DNA of 46,083 nt, taken from positions 1 through 46,083 of the IMG/VR virus record IMGVR_UViG_3300035172_000274, one strand, 5' to 3'. This DNA is from a virus. Made by a program: the position numbers and the translations under genes. The first letter of the stretch is position 1; each line of letters starts with the position of its first letter. Below the pieces are notes generated by a model that did not search any database, was not told the DNA's origin, and saw only the letters and a list, made by a program, of their open reading frames with translations. Below, piece by piece: positions 4,464 through 42,262 of this stretch.

Positions 4464-5819
4464 CTAGAGAACATCGAACATTGAAATTTCTTGAGTAAGC
4501 TCATTGAAGGCGCCCGAAAGAGCGTCCACTTGGTCAACATGGCCCTCTGTATCTTCGGAGAAGTTTTCCAGCTCCGAGAAGAATTCTTCGTTCCATGCCC
4601 CTTTTAATACCTTAACATTCCCTGCTTCACATTGCGCGGACACCGGCAGCGCGCGGGTTACCTTGTCGGCAGAAGGCTTTGACACGCGTACGTCATACCC
4701 TGCGAGCAACCGCACCATATTTTGTGCATCGGCAATACCCGAAGAGCCAGGCTCTTGCTCGATGACTATCCTGCAATTGTGGGTGTCTTGGGAAGCAATG
4801 TTTCTGATGAACTGCTCGACCTGCAGCGGCGTGTCTCTAATGCCTGCGACGTCCGCGACGATGAACGTCCCATCGGACATTTTGAAAAGTCGGACCCCCC
4901 TGGTCCAACAAGGATTCGGATTTCCTGGATTGGGCTTGGTTGCGGCGCGATCCCAAAATCTGACCTGCATCACCACTTGGGCAGGGAAAGCCTCTATAAT
5001 CCTAAACCAGCCCCGCTGGAACATGGTCCCCGCAGAGGCCGTAATGTTCCAATTGCCCTTCAGAAGTCTTTCCCTTTCTACCTTGGACAAAGCCATGAGG
5101 TTCGCCAGGTAGGCAGGGTCCTTCTCCATGAGGATCTTATTGTCGTGCAGCAATGAGGGGATAAAGGTGAAAGACTTAGGATGCTGCGCGGAGCCGTATT
5201 TATCTATGAGTTCTTTTCTGGAGTCAGCCCAAAGAAACATATCGTCCTGCCGAATAAACCATCTCAAGACGCCAGATCTTTCTGGTATGGGGAACCCCTC
5301 TGGTCCTATCCACCAGTCCACAAGTTGGCGAACCCAAGAATTAGCATCTGGATTACAGGTTCCACGCATTCTCCCGGGCAGACCGGACATGGAGCGGTTC
5401 CTTGAAAGCATGTACCAGAACTGTTTTGAGGTGAAGTGAGTGAGCTCATCCCACCCTATCCAGGCGATCTGAGAGCCCTGCCAATCGTAAACCGTGTTCT
5501 CGTTTTCGAGATGCGCGAACTTAACCGGCATTCCGCCGGGGAATTTCCACTCTAGTGTGGCCTGTCTCGGGTGTCCTCCTAGTGGGTAATAGAGCTTCAT
5601 GCTCTCATCCCAAAGACCTCCCTGGTTTCGGACCTGCACAGAATTGCGGCGGAATATGACGGCGCCGAAACGAGGATTTTTCAAATGGTAGAGGGGGTCC
5701 AAAAGCAGGCTATATGTCTTCCCCCCTCCGGCCCCTCCGCCAAAAAGGGCAATATCCGCATCACACATGAGGAACTGTTCTTGGGGCCCAGGTTGGGGTC
5801 TAATCTCTTGTAACGACAT
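4464..5819 (-). CDS. terL: Terminase large subunit
   Basis: 451 residues, T4 gp17-like (Terminase_6). ATPase: Walker A GGGAGGGKT at residues 27-35, Walker B IAWIGWDE at 118-125, then RMRGTCNPD. The RNase H-like nuclease domain starts near residue 285: the first Asp in VRFWDRAAT (Asp290), acidic centre in IVIEQEPGSSG (about 354-356), last Asp in HVDQVDALSGAF (429/432). It forms the packaging motor with the portal and cuts concatemers. The start overlaps the end of the small terminase gene by 20 bases. Confidence 0.95.
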   Translation of the reverse strand: MSLQEIRPQPGPQEQFLMCDADIALFGGGAGGGKTYSLLLDPLYHLKNPRFGAVIFRRNSVQVRNQGGLWDESMKLYYPLGGHPRQATLEWKFPGGMPVKFAHLENENTVYDWQGSQIAWIGWDELTHFTSKQFWYMLSRNRSMSGLPGRMRGTCNPDANSWVRQLVDWWIGPEGFPIPERSGVLRWFIRQDDMFLWADSRKELIDKYGSAQHPKSFTFIPSLLHDNKILMEKDPAYLANLMALSKVERERLLKGNWNITASAGTMFQRGWFRIIEAFPAQVVMQVRFWDRAATKPNPGNPNPCWTRGVRLFKMSDGTFIVADVAGIRDTPLQVEQFIRNIASQDTHNCRIVIEQEPGSSGIADAQNMVRLLAGYDVRVSKPSADKVTRALPVSAQCEAGNVKVLKGAWNEEFFSELENFSEDTEGHVDQVDALSGAFNELTQEISMFDVL

Positions 5820-6970: not shown

Positions 6971-7192
6971 TTACTCGATTCCGAGTTTTTTCGCCTGCTC
7001 TGGATTGGAAGAGAGTAAAAATGACGAGAGGCCCCATTCGACCACCTGCCGGAGCGTGAGGTTTCGTTTCTTGAGTTCGGAACGGACCAAGACGAGCATT
7101 GCTGCATTCACCTCGGCTGTGATCAATATTTTGGCTTCCTTTTGAGTACTAGGAATCGGAATAGACCCATGGCTTTTCATAGAATGTTTCAT
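6971..7192 (-). CDS. Small ribbon-helix-helix-like protein
   Basis: 73 residues; GGGGAAG lies 6 bases before ATG 7192. A short strand (EAKILITAEVN) is followed by two helices (AMLVLVRSELKKRNL and TLRQVVEWGLSSFLL), the order seen in ribbon-helix-helix DNA-binding proteins. It ends four bases before the RecU-like start. Possible operon regulator or accessory protein; the fold is inferred from pattern only. Confidence 0.55.
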   Translation of the reverse strand: MKHSMKSHGSIPIPSTQKEAKILITAEVNAAMLVLVRSELKKRNLTLRQVVEWGLSSFLLSSNPEQAKKLGIE

Positions 7193-9600: not shown

Positions 9601-9630
9601 AGGATACCATATACATGGGTATATATGCAA
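9601..9630 (-). promoter_or_regulatory. Promoter candidate for the leftward early operon
   Basis: On the minus strand TTGCAT (9630-9625) and TATCCT (9606-9601) are separated by 18 bases, close to a sigma70-type promoter. The first gene's GGAGG and GTG follow within about 25 bases. The region is the divergence point between leftward and rightward early genes. Confidence 0.4.
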
Positions 9631-9646
9631 GGCCAATTAAAGGCCT
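9630..9646. promoter_or_regulatory. Inverted repeat, operator candidate
   Basis: AGGCC (9630-9634) and GGCCT (9642-9646) form an inverted repeat around AATTAAA, abutting the -35 element of the leftward promoter. A dimeric regulator bound here could control both divergent early units. The arms are short, so chance cannot be excluded. Confidence 0.35.
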
Positions 9647-9698
9647 ATGGTTCCGACGAGTTGACGAGCTCAGGGTTGGCCTGCAGGATTGCCTCTAT

Positions 9699-10373
9699 AT
9701 GGCCAAGCTCAAAACCATCCCAATTCGCTGTAAAGGGGCCTCTACCTTGAAGCTCTCGGAACTCCATGACTTTCAGGGCAACTTGAAAGTGCTCACGTTC
9801 GAAAATCAGGGCAAACTGGAGCGTGAGATTCTTGAACTCGGGTTTTCCGAGCCCGTAAGTGTTTGGGTAGATAAGAAGAAAAAAGCCCACATCCTGAACG
9901 GTCACCAAAGGGTGCGAACCGTGAAGGCCCTTGTTGAACGTGGTTCTCACGCATGTCCAGGGCTTCCAGTGAGCTTTGTGGAAGCCGATAACATGAAACA
10001 GGCCAAACAAAAGGTGCTCGCTCTAACCTCTCAATACGGTTCGATGACAGACGATGGACTCAGAGAGTTCCTGGATGACTCTGGACTTGGCTTAGAAGAC
10101 CTCGAACGTTTTGAATTCCCGGAAATCAATCTGGACAATTTCCGTTTGGAAGCCGAAGGGGAAAAGGCGCCCGGCGAAAAGGTGGCGGTCTCTTTCGATG
10201 CTTACCAAAACGCCGCCATCAAACAGATTGTGGTTTACCTGGCCAGAGAAGACTACGACAAGGCCCTACCAAAGCTCGACGCCCTAATGGATAAATGGGA
10301 ACTCGAAGACTATTCTCAGGTCATCTGGAGACTCATAAATGAAGCGGTTCCAGCTCTCTCGAAAAGAGATTGA
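9699..10373 (+). CDS. ParB-like nuclease-fold protein of the DNA modification cassette
   Basis: 224 residues from ATG 9699 (AGGA 10 bases upstream; an in-frame ATG at 9615 would add 28 residues). The first 110 residues form a ParB/Srx-type domain: a strand-rich start, LEREILELGFSEPVSVWVD, then the hallmark ILNGHQRVRTVKAL. The C-terminal half is acidic and helical (EDYDKALPKLDALMDKWEL). ParB-like proteins accompany TET/JBP dioxygenases and DNA glycosyltransferases in published phage hypermodification neighbourhoods. It overlaps the dioxygenase gene by 35 bases, implying joint translation. Likely role: DNA binding, CTP-dependent clamp or nicking to guide modification; which one is inference. 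Confidence 0.8.
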   Translation: MAKLKTIPIRCKGASTLKLSELHDFQGNLKVLTFENQGKLEREILELGFSEPVSVWVDKKKKAHILNGHQRVRTVKALVERGSHACPGLPVSFVEADNMKQAKQKVLALTSQYGSMTDDGLREFLDDSGLGLEDLERFEFPEINLDNFRLEAEGEKAPGEKVAVSFDAYQNAAIKQIVVYLAREDYDKALPKLDALMDKWELEDYSQVIWRLINEAVPALSKRD

Positions 10374-11160
10374 CGCCAAAAAGCTGCAACGCCGAACCGC
10401 GCAGGAATCCGACACCTCCCTAATTTACGACGAGCCAGGAGTGTACGAACTCGACAGCAAACCGGTCATCATTTACGGAAGGCTCGAAGAGCGACACAAG
10501 GATATTCTGTGGGCGGTCAAAACTTTGGGCATGCAAACGGCAACCAGAGAGACTTCCAAAGACGGTTCCAGCCGCATTTTTGGCTTCCGTCCTAGAATCA
10601 CAATGGGAAGCGGCAACTTCTGTTCGGTCACTTCTGCATTCGAGACCCATCCAGAGCAACACAAAATCATTTGCGAGTTCGGAAAAACGTTAGACCGAGT
10701 TTACAAAAAGAACGCTCCAAAGGTTTACCAAAAGCATCAAAGGTTGCTGGCAGAATTCATCAAGAAAGATTGGCGGATTCCCGGAACGAGTTTCACATCT
10801 GGCATCGTTAACCGAAACAATCCCCTTCTCTATCATTACGACAAAGGGAACTTGTTCGACGTCATGAGCTGCATGGTTGTCTTTCGTCACCTTTGCGAAG
10901 GCGGGTTCTTAAGCATCCCGGAATTCGGCGCTCGTTGGTTATTGAACGACCGAAGTTATTTTCTCTTCGATGGTCAGAGCTGTCTTCACGGGGTCACTCC
11001 GATTCAAAAACTGAACCAAAAAGCCTACCGCTATTCCGTTGTCTATTACGCTCTACGAAAGATGCAGGAATGCGGAACGAGAGAAGAGGAACTCTGCCGT
11101 GTTCGCACCAATCGTCGATTAGTCGAAAAAAGAAGAGCCACCAAGTCGGAGCAACCCTAG
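10339..11160 (+). CDS. TET/JBP-family 2-oxoglutarate/Fe(II) dioxygenase
   Basis: 273 residues; GGAG lies 8 bases before ATG 10339. Residues about 148-238 carry the double-stranded beta-helix signature: HYD (His166, Asp168) within LLYHYDKGNLFD, EGGFLSIPEFG, then LHGVTP (His217) and RYSVVYY (Arg231). His-x-Asp plus distal His bind Fe(II), and Arg binds 2-oxoglutarate. The order and the GGxLxxPE and HGVxP elements fit the TET/JBP group, which hydroxylates the methyl of 5-methylcytosine or thymine in DNA. It overlaps the ParB-like gene and faces a TET-associated glycosyltransferase. No methyltransferase partner is visible. The basic, Arg/Lys-rich C-terminal 35 residues may contact DNA. Confidence 0.8.
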   Translation: MKRFQLSRKEIDAKKLQRRTAQESDTSLIYDEPGVYELDSKPVIIYGRLEERHKDILWAVKTLGMQTATRETSKDGSSRIFGFRPRITMGSGNFCSVTSAFETHPEQHKIICEFGKTLDRVYKKNAPKVYQKHQRLLAEFIKKDWRIPGTSFTSGIVNRNNPLLYHYDKGNLFDVMSCMVVFRHLCEGGFLSIPEFGARWLLNDRSYFLFDGQSCLHGVTPIQKLNQKAYRYSVVYYALRKMQECGTREEELCRVRTNRRLVEKRRATKSEQP

Positions 11161-11201
11161 GGATATCCCCGAGGTGTTGGAAAGGAGATCGATTACGCAC
11201 T

Positions 11202-11939
11202 TCACTTCGGCCGGAACGCAGCCCAGTTGATCTTCACATCCGGGCGCCCATCTTTTTTGATCGTGGCCTTGCAGATATTTGGCCAGGCGTCTTCCATTCT
11301 CTGACTCGCGGTTTTTTCCAAACCCGAGCGATAGATGTCGTAGAGGCCGCCCTTATTGCTACCGTTTTTGGGCGCTGCAAAAGAAAGCTTGCTACTTCGT
11401 ACAGTTAGCATGCCACTAGCAAGCACCTGTAAGGTGAAGTCTCGGTCCTCCTTGAGGTTCATTTCCGGTCGATAGTTCAGATTTTTGGTCCGCTCCACAT
11501 TGATGGCTACGGCGACGTCACAGTATCCAATGGCATGTTCCTTTTTGGCAGACCATGAGAACTGTTGATACTCGAGCGCTCCCTGACCTACTTGTCCCAG
11601 TGACTGGAAGATTTTCTGTGCTTCCGCCAATACTATGGCCGGATCGGTCTTGTGATTTCTGCCGCCTTCGGACCGATTGAAGCCGGTGATGTCATCGTCC
11701 AGCATCCAAAACCATTTGTGGTTCAGCTCCCGGCACAGATTGAGAACGAAATTCCGAACGTAGGCTATGCCTTGGTTGTCTTTCTGCAAAGAAAGTAGCT
11801 TACTGCCGATTTCGTTGACACGGGCGTAGGCGCCCATGTCCTGAGGCTCCACAATCAGCGTGTGCGGGATCGCCGCCAAAGTCTTGGCAGTGGCTGGATT
11901 CGGACGGCCTTTCGACGGTATATAAATCGGCCAAATCAT
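11202..11939 (-). CDS. TET-associated glycosyltransferase (TAGT-like, GT-A fold)
   Basis: 245 residues. The N-terminal YIPSKGRP, then GIAYVRNFVLN (about residues 57-67) and WFWMLDDDITGF (Asp81-Asp83) match the family of GT-A glycosyltransferases encoded beside phage TET/JBP enzymes, where the Asp triplet holds the metal and nucleotide sugar. RPEMNLKEDRDFTLQVL resembles the acceptor-side acidic motif of GT-A enzymes. Convergent with the dioxygenase gene, 41 bases apart. Proposed role: add a sugar to the hydroxymethyl base in DNA. Its own promoter should lie between 11940 and 12228. Confidence 0.82.
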   Translation of the reverse strand: MIWPIYIPSKGRPNPATAKTLAAIPHTLIVEPQDMGAYARVNEIGSKLLSLQKDNQGIAYVRNFVLNLCRELNHKWFWMLDDDITGFNRSEGGRNHKTDPAIVLAEAQKIFQSLGQVGQGALEYQQFSWSAKKEHAIGYCDVAVAINVERTKNLNYRPEMNLKEDRDFTLQVLASGMLTVRSSKLSFAAPKNGSNKGGLYDIYRSGLEKTASQRMEDAWPNICKATIKKDGRPDVKINWAAFRPK

Positions 11940-18302: not shown

Positions 18303-18529
18303 ATGGACCTGACTCATATCATACGTCTGAAACAAAATATTTCGTCTTTGAAGCGCATCATGTGCACTCAAGCGTGCGACTTGAATGCGATAGCCTTTAC
18401 TCAGCGGTGCTCCATGTTTTTGATGGTAAGCAGCAGGTTCAGATAAGGCTAGATTCTCCGGCACTCCTTAGCCTTTGGAAGGTTATGGATTTATGGGCCG
18501 GAAAACAAAATCCACAAGGTGAGAAATGA
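18299..18529 (+). CDS. Unknown small early protein
   Basis: 76 residues, ATGA-coupled at both ends. Strand-rich (KYFVFEAHHVHSSVRLECD) with several His, followed by a Trp-containing helix (SLWKVMDLWAGKQ). No known domain. Confidence 0.6.
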   Translation: MNGPDSYHTSETKYFVFEAHHVHSSVRLECDSLYSAVLHVFDGKQQVQIRLDSPALLSLWKVMDLWAGKQNPQGEK

Positions 18530-19251
18530 ATAACTACGAACGCATCCTCACTCCATACCGCAATCAACTAGCAAAATTTATCGACGATAACTACATGACG
18601 TTGGAAGCGCCTAGAGCCATGGAAGCGCTGCAGAAATACACCAGGCTTGGTTATGAGATGACTAAGGATGTCGTCCATTGGCTTACTTGTGCAGGAGATA
18701 CTTGTTTCGATTTTGGGGTAGCGAATTTTCTTGTGGCTCGGGCTGAAGAAGAAGAAGGCCATGAAAAACTAATGACGAGAGATGCCGACAAGCTAGGCGC
18801 AGCAGGTAACTTTTCGTTAGCCCCAGGGGTTAGGCAATATGAGCGACTGCACTGGGAAGCCATCAAAGAAAGTTGGGGGGCAATTGTCCCCATAATGTAC
18901 GAAATCGAAATGCTGTCCATCACCCACGGCCCGAGAATTCTGGACCACGTGAAAAAGGTTCTCGGAGAAGACGTTGTAAATTCACTTTCCTTTCTGCAAA
19001 GCCACGTGAACTTTGACGTCACGCACACCAAAGAGAATCGCGAGTGCATGGAAATGATGCTTAAGGACGACCCGTCGAAATTACCGCACCTGGTAGAATA
19101 TGGAGTGAGGGCACTTTCTGCCTACCAACTATTCCTCCAGGACTGTCTAAATGAAGCAACGCAAGGCGTGGCTATCTCGTCAGCGGGACGGGAACTACAT
19201 GTTCAGTCTTCTCAAGCCGGTGAAATCGAGGGTTCTGGGAACGGAATATGA
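18526..19251 (+). CDS. Haem-oxygenase-like diiron protein (HDO-type)
   Basis: 241 residues, all helical. Residues 71-90 (ARAEEEEGHEKLMTRDADKL) and 157-170 (LQSHVNFDVTHTKE; His160, Asp164, His167) match the ligand motifs of haem-oxygenase-like diiron oxidases and oxygenases, with another candidate ligand in YEIEML (Glu126). Members hydroxylate, desaturate or N-oxygenate small molecules. Its role here may be to make or modify a sugar, amine or nucleotide used by the modification genes. The C-terminal 34 residues are dubious because the next gene reads the same DNA in another frame. Alternative: a non-catalytic helical bundle. Confidence 0.55.
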   Translation: MNNYERILTPYRNQLAKFIDDNYMTLEAPRAMEALQKYTRLGYEMTKDVVHWLTCAGDTCFDFGVANFLVARAEEEEGHEKLMTRDADKLGAAGNFSLAPGVRQYERLHWEAIKESWGAIVPIMYEIEMLSITHGPRILDHVKKVLGEDVVNSLSFLQSHVNFDVTHTKENRECMEMMLKDDPSKLPHLVEYGVRALSAYQLFLQDCLNEATQGVAISSAGRELHVQSSQAGEIEGSGNGI

Positions 19252-19721: not shown

Positions 19722-19784
19722 TTGGTTTTGGGTTGGGGAGTACCATAATTAGCAATGGGTCGACCTGTTAAGTCGGAATATGCC

Positions 19785-19811
19785 GGGGCGGAGCCGGCCT
19801 CCCCAGCTTTT
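19785..19811 (+). terminator. Weak terminator-like hairpin
   Basis: GGGGCGG (19785-19791) pairs with CCTCCCC (19798-19804) except for one C/T mismatch, loop AGCCGG; AGCTTTT follows. It lies in the only non-coding gap of this part of the early operon and could lower readthrough to the genes beyond. Confidence 0.4.
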
Positions 19812-20084: not shown

Positions 20085-21165
20085 TTCATAACTTGCATTT
20101 TTTTCATCTGCCGGCTTTGATTCGCACACGAACCGAAATTATCGAATTCTTCTCGCTTACAAAAACTTCTCCAAAGATTGCAACGTATCCCATATAGGAC
20201 TCGGCGTTACTGCTGCCTATACTGCTAAAACACTCATGGCTAATGGCATCATTGCCCAAGCCTTCCCGGCCTTTGGTGCGGACGACATCGGCAACTATGT
20301 AGAATCCCAGGAATCATCTCCACGTCCGATCACTCACGTCATCGTAATGGCTCAGTGGATTCCGACGATATTTCTAGCAAAGCTTTGCAGAAAATTTCCG
20401 CACGTTAAGTTCACCTTGAATTGCCATTCGAACGTAGGTTTCTTGCAAGCGGAGCCAAGGGCCATTGACCTGCTGAGAGAGGCGATTGATCTAGAGACTG
20501 GGACAACGAATTTCTTTGCCTCGGCGAACAACCAACGCCTGGCCAGCATCTTGGGGAGCATATATGGGAGACCAGTGCAGTATCTGCCAAACCTGTATTA
20601 CCTCCATGGACACGAACCTATTCATCGACCTCTGTATAATGGTGGCCCTCTTCGCATCGGCGCTTTTGGGTCTGCTCGCGTGTACAAAAACTTCTCGACG
20701 GCAGTCACCGCGGCCATGGAAATAGGGTTCATGTTGAAGGTTCCAGTTGAGATTTGGATGAACGCCGGTCGATCGGACGGCGCTGGAAATATCGTCTACA
20801 AGACAGCCAAAGCCTGGACGCATGATGTTCCTGGCGTGACACTGAAGGAACTCCATTGGTGTTCCTGGCCAGATTTCAAAAGGTTCTGCGGCACAATGAA
20901 CCTAATGTTGCAGCCGTCGTATACGGAGACATTCAATAACGTGACTGCGGATGGAATTGCTGAGGGCGTTCCATCCGTTGTCAGCGACACGATTGAATGG
21001 GTTCCTGAGAGTTGGAAGGCTTCCAGTGATGACTCGAAGGACGTTGCCGCTGTAGGGCGGAGACTTCTATATGATCACCACGCACCAAGAGAGGGCTACG
21101 AGCACCTGAGAAAATACGTACAGAATGGGTTAGAGTATTGGAAAACCTACCTTGCCAGACCATGA
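20081..21165 (+). CDS. GT4-type glycosyltransferase with a frameshift at a T7 tract
   Basis: The ATG at 20081 overlaps the preceding stop (ATGA) and starts MIHNLHFF, but the frame shifts after TTTTTTT (20098-20104). The body reads on in the -1 frame as SSAGFDSHTNRNYRILLAYK, then VSHIGLGVTAAYTAKTL, and so on to 21165. A slip on the T7 or an eighth T joins them into 361 residues. The only in-frame start for the body alone is ATG 20236, which would lose the first strands. The C-terminal half is GT-B: PLRIGAFGSARVYKNF for the nucleotide-sugar loop, and SYTETFNNVTADGIAEGVPS with the conserved Glu. The acceptor is unknown. Confidence 0.75.
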
Positions 21166-21409: not shown

Positions 21410-21769
21410 TTATCGAGAAGGAAGAGCCTTAACGGGACCGCCGTCAATCATTTGTGGCTGTACAAGTTCAATCGTTTTACACGGTCGAATATCCACAGGG
21501 GTGAAATATCCGTAGAAATGTCCCATGATAAAACCCATTGCGAAGATAGTTGCAGGCGCCTTCAGACCAGCCCAAATCATCACGGCAGATATTGAAGTCC
21601 CAACCTTCCCGTCCTTAACCATCCAAACATCCCAGGCTGCAGCCGTTCCAATGAGAACCAGAACAAGAATGGCTGTGGGCGCATGAGTCGGTAAAAGAGT
21701 TACGAATAAAGAAACAACTCCTACAGAGATGACCAGCGTCGTTATTATTAGGTTTCTGAAGGTCATCAT
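21410..21769 (-). CDS. Small membrane protein with three helices
   Basis: 119 residues. Hydrophobic segments at about 6-26 (LIITTLVISVGVVSLFVTLL), 31-48 (PTAILVLVLIGTAAAW) and 62-85 (AVMIWAGLKAPATIFAMGFI). Coupled to the papain-like protease gene by ATGA. It may export or retain that protease, or act as a holin-like protein; neither is shown by sequence. Confidence 0.65.
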   Translation of the reverse strand: MMTFRNLIITTLVISVGVVSLFVTLLPTHAPTAILVLVLIGTAAAWDVWMVKDGKVGTSISAVMIWAGLKAPATIFAMGFIMGHFYGYFTPVDIRPCKTIELVQPQMIDGGPVKALPSR

Positions 21770-22722
21770 CGGCGGCGATGCCTTTTTTGATCGCCCAATT
21801 CAAACACCAATGCATCGTGTCCTATTTGATTGCATCGGTTGCCATTGATGTCCGTGACTTTCATAGTGATGTATCCGGCATCTCCCCAAGGACCCCAAGA
21901 GTTCCTCACCAAATAAGTTCCAATACCCGGAGGCAAATTGCCATTGGGATCAAGAGCACAATTGCCAGAACTATCCACAGAACCTTCACAATCATAACCC
22001 TCAATAACCACCATGTGGTCGATGTCATTTTCTCCTCCCTGGCAGACATTATAGACGCCACCGGAGTAGTTTTCCCATTCCCCAGATCCGGCTGCGACAT
22101 CAGTAGAGACCGGATGATTTTGGGATATTTGGCTGGCTATGTCGTAGAAACTCGGCCCGTTATTATCTCCCAGAAGTTGATATCCGGCTGCCTGCGCGAT
22201 CGCTTTTCCCTTTACGCATTTCCCTTGGGAACCGGAGTAGGGAGCGCGATCGTAAGAATAATCACCTTGAATACCTTTACCACCCTGAATAAGCCATTCC
22301 GCAGCAGATAAGTCCCCTCCGTTACAACCATAATCGTCCGTGTCGCAATTCAGGAGGTAGTTGAAACTAAGTCGACCAGGGTCTTGATTGGCAAGAATCA
22401 TGGTCCCTCGAAGAACTGTAGTCAGAGAAAAATCCCAACAGCTACCGCACTGTCCTTGATCCTCTACTGGTCCGGCCGTTCCTCTTAGGGAAATTGACTT
22501 CGGAATCGGGGAAGCGCCCAAGTGACTTCGTTTGAGTTTCTTGGACTCACGTAAAAACTTCTTCGCGTGTTCATGTCTCTTAAGTCCCTTGTGGTGCTTG
22601 TGACCATGCTCGATTGTTCTGAAGTTCTTTACTGGCTGAGGAACAGGAGATGGTGGAACAGGCTTACTGCTGTTGCATCCACAGAAGAACATCAAAAACA
22701 TAAAAGGTAATAAAATTTTCAT
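21766..22722 (-). CDS. Papain-like (C1A) cysteine protease, predicted lipoprotein
   Basis: 318 residues from ATG 22722, preceded by GGGGGAAAA. A signal peptide MKILLPFMFLMFFCGC with lipobox is followed by a His/Lys-rich linker (about residues 35-70). The catalytic domain has all papain landmarks: oxyanion Gln91 and nucleophile Cys95 in DQGQCGSCWDFS, CNGGD with the conserved CxGG, His236 in HMVVIEGYD, Asn274 in VRNSWGPWGD. The usual inhibitory propeptide is absent or replaced by the linker. It should act at the periplasmic or outer surface of the host. Secreted papain-like proteases are rare in phages. A short membrane protein is coupled downstream. Confidence 0.85.
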   Translation of the reverse strand: MKILLPFMFLMFFCGCNSSKPVPPSPVPQPVKNFRTIEHGHKHHKGLKRHEHAKKFLRESKKLKRSHLGASPIPKSISLRGTAGPVEDQGQCGSCWDFSLTTVLRGTMILANQDPGRLSFNYLLNCDTDDYGCNGGDLSAAEWLIQGGKGIQGDYSYDRAPYSGSQGKCVKGKAIAQAAGYQLLGDNNGPSFYDIASQISQNHPVSTDVAAGSGEWENYSGGVYNVCQGGENDIDHMVVIEGYDCEGSVDSSGNCALDPNGNLPPGIGTYLVRNSWGPWGDAGYITMKVTDINGNRCNQIGHDALVFELGDQKRHRRR

Positions 22723-22773
22723 TTTTCCCCCGAATTGATTTGACGCACCCATCACACGAAAATCCTCATCCGC

Positions 22774-22782
22774 TGCTACAAT
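22774..22782 (+). promoter_or_regulatory. Extended -10 promoter candidate for the rightward lysis/surface genes
   Basis: TGCTACAAT fits an extended -10 element. It lies about 90 bases before ATG 22871, in the 148-base divergent gap between the protease and the small membrane protein. No clear -35 box is seen. Confidence 0.3.
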
Positions 22783-22870
22783 ATTCGTTGGTGTGACGTC
22801 ATGGGAGCGGCGGAGGGCTAGTGGGGCACTCGTCTCACTTCCCTTCGTTCCCAAAACAAAGGAGACACAA

Positions 22871-23062
22871 ATGGCACAAATTTGGCAAGATATTTTGAAT
22901 ATCATTCAAGGCGTGAAGACAGGAACCTGGGCAGCTGTCGCTGGCGGAGCGGTGGCATTACTCGTTGCAGTAGCATCTATGTTTCCGAGCGTGGTCCCTG
23001 CGTGGCTTGCTACCCTGGTATCTGGTTTGTGGGCAGCGATTCATGGCGCGTTAGGGCACTAA
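22871..23062 (+). CDS. Small membrane protein, holin candidate
   Basis: 63 residues with AAAGGAGACACAA before ATG 22871, one of the best ribosome binding sites in the genome. One or two hydrophobic stretches (WAAVAGGAVALLVAVASMFP and VPAWLATLVSGLWAAIHG), hardly any charge. Size, amphipathic start and place at the head of the surface/lysis block suit a holin or small pore-former. Confidence 0.6.
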   Translation: MAQIWQDILNIIQGVKTGTWAAVAGGAVALLVAVASMFPSVVPAWLATLVSGLWAAIHGALGH

Positions 23063-23393: not shown

Positions 23394-23742
23394 TGGTTGC
23401 GGATCTATTCGCGCTCCGAAAATTCCCATAAAGGACATGGAGTTCTGCGAGCCTTCTCCGAGAGATGGTGTTTTCTGCAGTAAGATGCTCTCGAAGACCA
23501 TTCGCACTATCCCTGAGTCGGACAAGGTGGATTTTCTCACAACGGCGAATCCTCCGAGAGTTTCCGTGTCTATGGAGGACATAGCTTGGGTAGAGACGTT
23601 CATAGAGTCTGTTTGCAACGAGAATCCAAAGCTTTGTGATCGCACGTTTCTAAAAAAAACTCGGGAGATGTTCGACAGACACCGCAGAGCCAGAAGGCAA
23701 CACCGGGGACTTCCGCCCACAATGGAGGCTAGAAATGAATAG
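23338..23742 (+). CDS. Predicted lipoprotein, outer spanin candidate
   Basis: 134 residues, GGAAG 6 bases before ATG 23338. Signal peptide LCLISILLVSGCG with lipobox VSGC; the mature part is polar with four Cys and a basic end (RHRRARRQHRG). It overlaps the previous gene by 56 bases and the trypsin-like gene by eight. Longer than typical o-spanins, so another envelope role is possible. Confidence 0.6.
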   Translation: MQNLRPGRTLCLISILLVSGCGSIRAPKIPIKDMEFCEPSPRDGVFCSKMLSKTIRTIPESDKVDFLTTANPPRVSVSMEDIAWVETFIESVCNENPKLCDRTFLKKTREMFDRHRRARRQHRGLPPTMEARNE

Positions 23743-24610
23743 ATTTTTAATAGCTATCGTTTCCCTTTTTTTATCGTCCTGTTCCGAGGGGGTCCCAGTG
23801 TCCCCGACCCTTATAGGCGGAAGGGTTCCTTCGAAGGGGGATTTTCAAGCCGTGATATTCAGCGGAGGGTGCACAAATACTCTCGTAGGGAGCCGCGCAG
23901 TATTGACCGCCGCGCATTGCGTGAACACATCGATGGTTTTCTCAGTAGGCAGAGACAGCTTCAAAGCCGAATGCAGAATACCAAAAGAGTACTCGGACGG
24001 TGATATCTCAGCTGATAATTCACTTTGTTTTCTCGAGAGGGAAGTGAAAGGCATTGAGTTCGAGAGTCTCGATATCACAGATTCTGTTTCGACAGGGGAT
24101 CAGGTTCTTTTGTCAGGTTTTGGTTGTACGAAAAAGGGTGGGCCTACGGATGGTATTTTCCGCATTGGAGAGGCCATCGTTTCTACCAAATCCACCCGCA
24201 TGGGAGATGGATATTTCGTTACCCGCAAACCCGTGGCAAATTTGTGCCCTGGTGACTCCGGTGGGCCATGTTGGAGCATGAAGGACGGCAAGAGAGTGTC
24301 AGTCATAGGAAATAACTCTCGAAGCGACCTTGAGAATTATAGCTACATCGCGTCAACCTCTGCGAAATCCTTTGTCAGGTTCTTAGCGGCGTGGAAGAAA
24401 ATCCATCCCGAGGCCAGGATTTGCGGCGTGGATCTCGACGCGAAGGGCTGCCGTGGGGCCAAAACTCCTACAAAGCCCCAGACGGAGTTTGAATTGGACC
24501 ATGAGGTGGCATGGGTCGGTGTCATCATGAAACCGCAATACGTGCCAGTTTTAGAGAAATTCAGGAGGATTGTGGAGGCAGCTCTGGGGTCGTTGGTGCC
24601 TTCCCGGTAG
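23735..24610 (+). CDS. Trypsin-like (S1) serine protease, predicted lipoprotein
   Basis: 291 residues. Signal peptide MNRFLIAIVSLFLSSC with lipobox at Cys16, then an N-terminal IGGR that in trypsins becomes the new N terminus after activation. Catalytic triad: His61 in VLTAAHC, Asp94 in ISADNSLCFL, Ser175 in CPGDSGGP. Disulphide cysteines are present (SGGC, AAHC, FGC, NLC). A C-terminal extension of about 60 residues follows. It should be exported and anchored at the cell envelope. Such lipoproteins are common in Bdellovibrio-like bacteria. Its 3' end overlaps a convergent gene by 50 bases. Confidence 0.85.
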   Translation: MNRFLIAIVSLFLSSCSEGVPVSPTLIGGRVPSKGDFQAVIFSGGCTNTLVGSRAVLTAAHCVNTSMVFSVGRDSFKAECRIPKEYSDGDISADNSLCFLEREVKGIEFESLDITDSVSTGDQVLLSGFGCTKKGGPTDGIFRIGEAIVSTKSTRMGDGYFVTRKPVANLCPGDSGGPCWSMKDGKRVSVIGNNSRSDLENYSYIASTSAKSFVRFLAAWKKIHPEARICGVDLDAKGCRGAKTPTKPQTEFELDHEVAWVGVIMKPQYVPVLEKFRRIVEAALGSLVPSR

Positions 24611-41161: not shown

Positions 41162-42196
41162 CTAGTGAATTCTAGACGGACTCAGTTTCTGAATCGCCCA
41201 GCTCGCGAATTCCTCTGGAGCCGGCAACCAGCATAACAGTTTCTCTGGATCTACTTTATCGAAGGCTATGCCCTCTAAATTATTCGGCGCGACATTCCTA
41301 TTAACCCAATCGCCTCCGCGGGACAGGTTTTGCATCCTCCAAGCCCATTCTCCCCCATTTCTCCAATGGTAGATATGATCTGGGTGTCGAACTGTAGAGA
41401 CAAAGCCTATCCACGCGTTTCCTGAAGATGCTAAATGCACGGGCATCGAGTCATTGGACAAAAGCACCCTGGCGGTCTGAAGGACTGCCGTTGTCTCCAT
41501 CAGGGTCAGTTTATCCCGCAAATCGAGGCATCCCAGAGCATTCACGGGAACTGTTCCTCGTTCCGGATATAGGCTGTTGTTTCCGATAAGAACTGGACGC
41601 ATTCCGCAAGCCATCAAATACGTCAACACAGTGTCCCACCAATCCTTGGGGAACGTCTTCGACTGCCAGCTCCGCCCGGGATGAACCACGACGTCGGTAG
41701 TGGAATCGATTAGGGATAGGGCCTTGGTTTTTTCTTTCGCGTCCGGAACCAATTTTATGCATCGATCTGCACAAGGTAGCTGACTTCGAAACATCGTCAT
41801 CGAGACATAGTCCACGCAATGGCAAAGCGGATGCGCGACGAACTCGGACTGAAGATGATCGTGGTCTTCGAGAGTATGGAAAACGAAGTAACCAGCATCC
41901 AGGGGTTTTTCCTTTTTCCCATCGTAAACATGTACGAATGGTATGTGCCTGAATAGATCAGGGAAGTCCGTGACCAAAGATATTGCGCTATCCTCGAAAT
42001 GGGACACCGCATATCTGAAAGACGGTTCCGCACAGACAATATCGCCCAGGCCGCCGGCTGTGCGGAAAAGCAGATTTTTCTCCGTGCGTCTTTGAATGGA
42101 CAGATTCAAACGAAACGACGGCAATAGCATAGACGGCAGCAGTATTTGAGCGTCTGGATCGAGAGGTTTTCCCGTTGGATTGTTGATCAGTCCCAT
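41162..42196 (-). CDS. GT9 (heptosyltransferase-like) glycosyltransferase
   Basis: 344 residues from ATG 42196. GT-B fold: FRTAGGLGDIVCAEPSFRYA near the N terminus, and in the C-terminal half VVVHPGRSWQSKTFPKDWWD, TLMETTAVLQTARVLLSNDS and MPVHLASSGN, the GT9 nucleotide-sugar motifs. It is out of place between the major capsid and fibre genes. ATG 42196 lies directly after an intrinsic terminator and has no ribosome binding site, so expression should be low; ATG 42133 is a later option. Acceptor unknown: virion protein, host LPS or DNA-linked sugar. Confidence 0.75.
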   Translation of the reverse strand: MGLINNPTGKPLDPDAQILLPSMLLPSFRLNLSIQRRTEKNLLFRTAGGLGDIVCAEPSFRYAVSHFEDSAISLVTDFPDLFRHIPFVHVYDGKKEKPLDAGYFVFHTLEDHDHLQSEFVAHPLCHCVDYVSMTMFRSQLPCADRCIKLVPDAKEKTKALSLIDSTTDVVVHPGRSWQSKTFPKDWWDTVLTYLMACGMRPVLIGNNSLYPERGTVPVNALGCLDLRDKLTLMETTAVLQTARVLLSNDSMPVHLASSGNAWIGFVSTVRHPDHIYHWRNGGEWAWRMQNLSRGGDWVNRNVAPNNLEGIAFDKVDPEKLLCWLPAPEEFASWAIQKLSPSRIH

Positions 42197-42232
42197 AAAC
42201 AAAAAAGGGAAGGAGGTCTGCGCCTCCCTCCC
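42197..42232 (-). terminator. Intrinsic terminator after the major capsid gene
   Basis: On the minus strand GGGAGGGAGG pairs with CCTCCTTCCC (ten pairs, one G-T) around CGCAGA and is followed by TTTTTTGTTT. It ends the strong capsid transcript and probably lowers expression of the GT9 and fibre genes that follow on the same strand. Confidence 0.85.
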
Positions 42233-42262
42233 CTTCAACCCCAATTGCACTAACCCCGAAAT

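Follow-up and report, generated by a model that had tools for sequence, protein, structure and literature searches.

An uncultured tailed phage carries a ParB-TET/JBP-TAGT cassette with an inverted glycosyltransferase that probably modifies its own DNA

The virus record that makes up the window spans 46,083 bases, with a 127-base direct terminal repeat that fits a circular assembly. It comes from an uncultured virus of bacteria, a tailed phage encoding terminase, portal, Mu-F-like head, major capsid and baseplate proteins. Three adjacent genes at positions 9699-11939 (9615-11939 if the first open reading frame is taken at its full extent) encode a ParB-like protein, a TET/JBP-type dioxygenase and a TET-associated glycosyltransferase (TAGT). 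Their neighbors are early genes with primosomal-like, exonuclease and RecT-like products, and the terminase gene (4464-5819, minus strand) lies about 4 kb off in divergent orientation. The reading frames and coordinates given for the three genes in an earlier note on this DNA were correct on an ORF check. Rfam returned no matches, and scanning the cassette for promoters and terminators yielded little beyond the shuffled expectation.

The ParB-like gene (9699-10373, plus strand) occupies a frame open from 9615 to 10373, and the internal ATG at 9699 is preferred as its start because the relatives align from that codon. Its product comprises a ParB/sulfiredoxin N-domain bearing a G-H-Q-R box (NGHQRVR) and a helical C-terminal part, and no methyltransferase or helix-turn-helix family matched it. 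By sequence the ParB identity is weak: a Pfam scan of the protein itself gave no ParB match, PHROG profiles detected a ParB-methyltransferase family over the N-terminal part (4.7e-13) and a ParB-like family (1.6e-7), and the proteins of the relatives match ParB_N at 6e-7 to 1e-4. The predicted fold supports the ParB-type designation made earlier, since the AlphaFold model (pLDDT 87.4) resembles Noc, KorB, ParB and PadC (1e-5 to 6e-4) and combines the N-domain fold and GxxR box of the ParB/Srx superfamily. The label "DNA methyltransferase" offered by phrog_498 was rejected, as only the ParB N-domain is shared (residues 36-182), with no methyltransferase part.

The dioxygenase gene (10339-11160, plus strand) starts within the end of the ParB-like gene, overlapping it by 35 bases. 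Its product matches Pfam Tet_JBP (PF12851) at 4.3e-13 and 49.3 bits, against a curated cut-off of 34.9. The iron ligands H166, D168 and H217 and the 2-oxoglutarate Arg R231, which the earlier note had picked out as a motif, are all present, and none varies among the aligned relatives that cover them; the base-pocket positions are N171, Y237 and L239. An AlphaFold model built from a 55-row alignment (pLDDT 95.5) found CcTet, NgTET1, CMD1 and TET2 as its top folds (1e-11 to 2e-9), with FTO and AlkB-type enzymes ranking below them (from 5e-8). Both the Pfam match and the fold thus bear out a 2-oxoglutarate/Fe(II) dioxygenase of TET/JBP type, and the AlkB or prolyl-hydroxylase fold that had been named as speaking against it was not the best match. 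The enzyme is predicted to oxidize 5-methylcytosine (5mC) or thymine in DNA. Many GenBank phage records name this family "queuine tRNA-ribosyltransferase", a label apparently inherited from PHROG 6059; we rejected it because Pfam and fold both say TET, and on phage TETs it looks wrong.

The TAGT gene (11202-11939, minus strand) is convergent with the dioxygenase gene and lies 41 bases past its stop. Its product scores 80.8 bits (1.8e-22) with Pfam TAGT (PF20691), well over the curated cut-off of 27.5, which upholds the family assignment, and the YIPSKGRP and WMLDDDI motifs reported earlier are present. It is of the GT-A type with LDDD and KEDRD motifs, and D81, D82, E164 and D165 are invariant across three aligned TAGTs.

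Related loci were collected from IMG/VR through their similarity to TET or TAGT, with ParB never serving as bait; single-sequence searches with the TET and ParB proteins returned nothing there, and alignment queries were required. Layouts were assigned with custom profiles in 163 TET-bearing loci, including the window and four cultured-phage records. Many of these contigs are related, so that the layout counts are not independent: ParB-TAGT-TET was found in 94 of the 163 and ParB-TET-TAGT in 18, about two dozen paired ParB-TET with an amino acid:DNA transferase (ADDT) and/or a kinase, 14 had ParB-TET with no recognized partner, and a few others were clipped by contig ends. Only two loci with a full flank, both Nonlabens-type (L005 and L090), were without ParB. 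Six bacterial contigs were also found, three of them from named Bacteroidota or Ignavibacteria members with a window-type TET; an Ignavibacteria contig (L250) and one from an uncultured Siphonobacter (L252) carry ParB-TAGT-TET. This conservation as a cassette shows that the three genes form one system, as had been claimed. The inverted TAGT occurs in the window only, among the 163 loci compared; its nearest full relative (L087) has a co-oriented ParB-TET-TAGT.

The constancy of ParB bears on what that protein does. It could be a packaging or partition gene that sits beside TET only through a shared nearness to the terminase, and in most relatives the cassette does lie directly upstream of the terminase genes. 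The window is alone in the set in having its cassette apart from a terminase, which is distant and divergent, yet ParB overlaps TET there. Moreover, ParB keeps adjoining the pair when the gene order varies, and does so on contigs of Bacteroidota, Ignavibacteria and Actinomycetota; it is absent throughout a sister TET lineage (0 of 80 loci, L170-L249, with TET at about position 7001 in many). We therefore regard a mere packaging neighbor as very improbable. In 60 of these 80 sister loci, TET is followed directly by a conserved ORF (about 160 amino acids) that has a weak phrog_13596 match and no Pfam family and might replace ParB in that lineage.

ParB-TET is a stable core, and the decorating enzymes beside it are exchangeable: TAGT, a GT-B-like glycosyltransferase, an FkbM-type methyltransferase, or ADDT with a P-loop kinase. 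The GT-B-like "YGGW" protein takes the place of TAGT in eight loci (L027, L030, L036, L037, L054, L063, L076 and L085); the L054 protein weakly matches Glyco_trans_1_2 and most of the others have no Pfam family. The FkbM-type methyltransferase adjoins ParB-TET in L014 (3982-4716), L053 (2858-3544) and Prochlorococcus phage MED4-184 (L167, 4300-4998), where neither TAGT nor ADDT occurs; it belongs to phrog_28597 in the first two, and O-methylation of a hydroxymethyl base is a possible activity. When the presence of TAGT was mapped on a tree of 63 TET rows (quick IQ-TREE with SH-aLRT support), 14 changes were needed, of which at least seven are forced by well-supported branches. The window TET groups with L007 (SH-aLRT 99) and L087 (97), and its 16-row clade (97) also includes L016 and L039, which carry ADDT and kinase, as well as the methyltransferase-bearing L014. 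A TET-made hydroxymethyl group, on which all of these decorators could act, would be their common intermediate.

These partners bear on the identity of the base, which the earlier note had left open between the pyrimidines. Comparison favors thymine, and we consider it the likely target. The L016 ADDT (Pfam ADDT, 9e-21) is homologous to that of Salmonella phage Vi01 (2e-15, 84% coverage) and to hundreds of related records, which places a window-clade TET beside a ViI-type ADDT, itself tied to hypermodified thymidine. ViI DNA contains 5-(2-aminoethoxy)methyl-dU, whose synthesis passes through 5hmdU and involves a 5hmdU DNA kinase (PMC6449724). Thymine is favored as well by cultured actinophages (Gordonia MossRose, Rhodococcus Tonitrus and Mycobacterium Prince), in which an adjacent ParB and TET/JBP pair, the TET about 30% identical to ours, heads ParB-TET-ADDT-kinase operons; unlike the window, these decorate via ADDT and P-loop kinase and adjoin the terminase. 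One of their products is annotated "thymidine hydroxylase", in line with this reading, although that name is an annotation and not a measurement.

The base pocket, with N171 and L239, is a further argument for thymine. The N4 of 5mC is contacted by Asp350 in CMD1, Asp234 in NgTET1 and Asn1387 in TET2, and the authors of that comparison remarked that an Asp to Asn exchange at this position might permit a hydrogen bond with the O4 of thymine (PMC7854593). The aligned residue, N171, is Asn in all 160 ParB-linked TETs, and L239 is Leu in 150 of the 160, its equivalents being His1904 in TET2, His297 in NgTET1 and Arg418 in CMD1. Because TET2 also has Asn there and still oxidizes 5mC, N171 is permissive rather than diagnostic.

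The shared Asn is also one of the points in favor of a cytosine route, in which TET would oxidize 5mC laid down by the host and TAGT would glycosylate the resulting 5hmC, so that only host methylation sites are decorated. T6 TAGT works on modified cytosine DNA (PMC13216743), and TET-TAGT-C5 methyltransferase arrangements exist in 3 of the 80 sister-lineage loci. Phage TETs acting on 5mC are reportedly known, Burke and colleagues (2021) being said to have shown enzymes directed at that base. A cytosine route needs a C5 methyltransferase, and a family search of the window found no cytosine-C5 methyltransferase, which in turn favors thymine; such genes occur in 6 of 50 relatives' records, most of them fragments, and in none within 3.5 kb of the ParB-TET cassette. 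Host-made 5mC is a possible source of substrate. Taken with the ViI-type ADDT and kinase partners that window-clade TETs also serve, and with the Leu that stands where TET2 and NgTET1 use His, and CMD1 uses Arg, to read the cytosine ring, these observations render the cytosine route unlikely.

The sister lineage tempers the preference for thymine. A CMD1-like Asp/Arg pocket pair is present in 81 of its 81 sequences, and its partners are again TAGT (47 of 80) and ADDT or kinase (29 of 80); with a different pocket and the same partners, partners alone are not diagnostic of the base. Either 5hmC is also a substrate for the TAGT and ADDT partners, or the pocket pair fails to separate cytosine from thymine. 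We rejected the view of the Asp/Arg lineage as a cytosine type with C5 methyltransferase partners, since the three loci mentioned above are the only ones of the 80 with such a gene adjacent, and this weak contrast lowered our estimate for thymine.

Sugar transfer to modified DNA is the predicted role of the window TAGT, the activity of the family being known only for T6. The T6 enzyme, a beta-glucosyl-HMC-alpha-glucosyltransferase of the same family (PF20691), adds a second glucose onto an existing sugar on cytosine, and solitary TAGTs are described as unexplained (PMC13216743); we counted this activity against a direct action of TAGT on a thymine-derived base. T6 further differs from the window in drawing 5hmC from the nucleotide pool and in having neither TET nor ParB. 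The window TAGT might likewise add a second sugar after another enzyme and so build a disaccharide, and a gene at 20236-21165 (plus strand) could supply the first sugar through its weak GT4/GT-B similarity (Glyco_trans_1_4, 0.013; GT4-conflict, 0.016); some relatives, too, have a GT-B-like gene adjoining ParB-TET. Both matches of the 20236-21165 gene are under cut-off, no relatives of it were found beside other cassettes, and most ParB-TAGT-TET loci have no second recognized glycosyltransferase in the cassette. A second-sugar role is thus distinctly improbable, more so than the cytosine route, and the 20236-21165 gene is only a possible member of the pathway.

Together, the three adjacent genes probably find, oxidize and then sugar-coat a base of the phage's own DNA. 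The account that we favor, and hold to be somewhat more probable than not, is a post-replicative cassette in which a ParB-aided thymine hydroxylase makes 5-hydroxymethyluracil and TAGT glycosylates it, shielding the DNA. After replication, the ParB-like protein would load on phage DNA, perhaps at particular sites or outward from them, and would recruit or license the TET/JBP enzyme, which, with 2-oxoglutarate, O2 and Fe(II), would hydroxylate the 5-methyl group of thymine to give 5-hydroxymethyluracil in DNA. TAGT would then move a sugar from a nucleotide sugar directly onto the hydroxyl, and the resulting base-J-like glycosyl-5-hydroxymethyluracil may shield the DNA from host nucleases. The earlier suggestion that the phage replaces or decorates a base stands in its second half: replacement is unlikely, as Pfam scans found no nucleotide-pool enzyme of the thymidylate-synthase-like hydroxymethylase kind, and decoration fits the post-replicative layout. 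Its further proposals, that ParB chooses the sites and that escape from nucleases is the purpose, are inferences.

Base J synthesis in kinetoplastids, by the JBP1/JBP2 thymidine hydroxylases and the JGT glucosyltransferase, likewise proceeds in two steps, a TET/JBP oxygenase acting on a DNA pyrimidine followed by a glycosyltransferase. JBP has its own J-binding or SWI2/SNF2 part in place of ParB, JGT is not a TAGT, and on the window side of this comparison both base and sugar are predicted from genes, thymine being favored by comparison only. In ViI and M6, a 5hmU intermediate is decorated post-replication, as proposed here, and the ViI ADDT is homologous to that of the window-clade relative L016; unlike in the window, 5hmdU comes from the nucleotide pool and not from TET, and no sugar is added. 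Nonlabens phage P12024L, with the layout TET-TAGT-(N4/N6-type methyltransferase), has the closest TAGT in cultured phages (40% identical) adjoining its TET, and differs in having no ParB, an Asp/Arg base pocket and a divergent TET lineage.

The window system is a ParB-TET-TAGT cassette with an inverted TAGT, of a partly described kind; phage TET/JBP systems, as well as TAGT, were reportedly predicted by Iyer and colleagues (2013). When 50,697 phage records were searched for similarity to TET and TAGT, the full trio was found in none at the thresholds used, TAGT matches being limited to 11 records of which only the Nonlabens phage also matched TET; this, together with the inverted TAGT, marks the variant as new. 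In the freely readable literature we found no paper tying ParB to phage TET, a link for which the earlier note assumed general biochemical support, and no report so far of a phage version of base J. As of 2019, no phage was reported to contain glucosylated 5hmdU (PMC6449724). The broader proposal, that phages make a base-J-like glycosyl-5-hydroxymethyluracil at chosen thymines by a ParB-guided TET/JBP enzyme, that ParB-TET is a general module for different decorators and that the bases on which many solitary phage TAGTs work derive from thymine rather than cytosine, is put forward tentatively, as somewhat more doubtful than likely. If true, base J chemistry would extend beyond the kinetoplastids and their relatives, and phages would be a rich source of ParB-guided enzymes that modify DNA site-selectively.

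Several further features of the window are recorded here. GATC and GTAC are scarce over its whole length (137 observed against 203 expected and 75 against 97, respectively, from trinucleotide-based expectations). A tRNA-Asn (GTT) gene at 19734-19807 (plus strand) is the sole tRNA gene detected, and the gene at 18526-19251 (plus strand) encodes a haem-oxygenase-like iron redox protein (PF14518, 4e-6, slightly under cut-off). Two proteases are unusual for a phage: a papain-like enzyme at 21766-22905 (minus strand; PF00112, 5e-35) and a trypsin-like one with a lipoprotein-like start at 23735-24610 (plus strand; PF00089, 3e-12). Finally, a GT9 heptosyltransferase-like gene (41162-42250, minus strand; PF01075, 6e-9) lies within the head-gene block and adjoins the major capsid gene, and its product could glycosylate the capsid.
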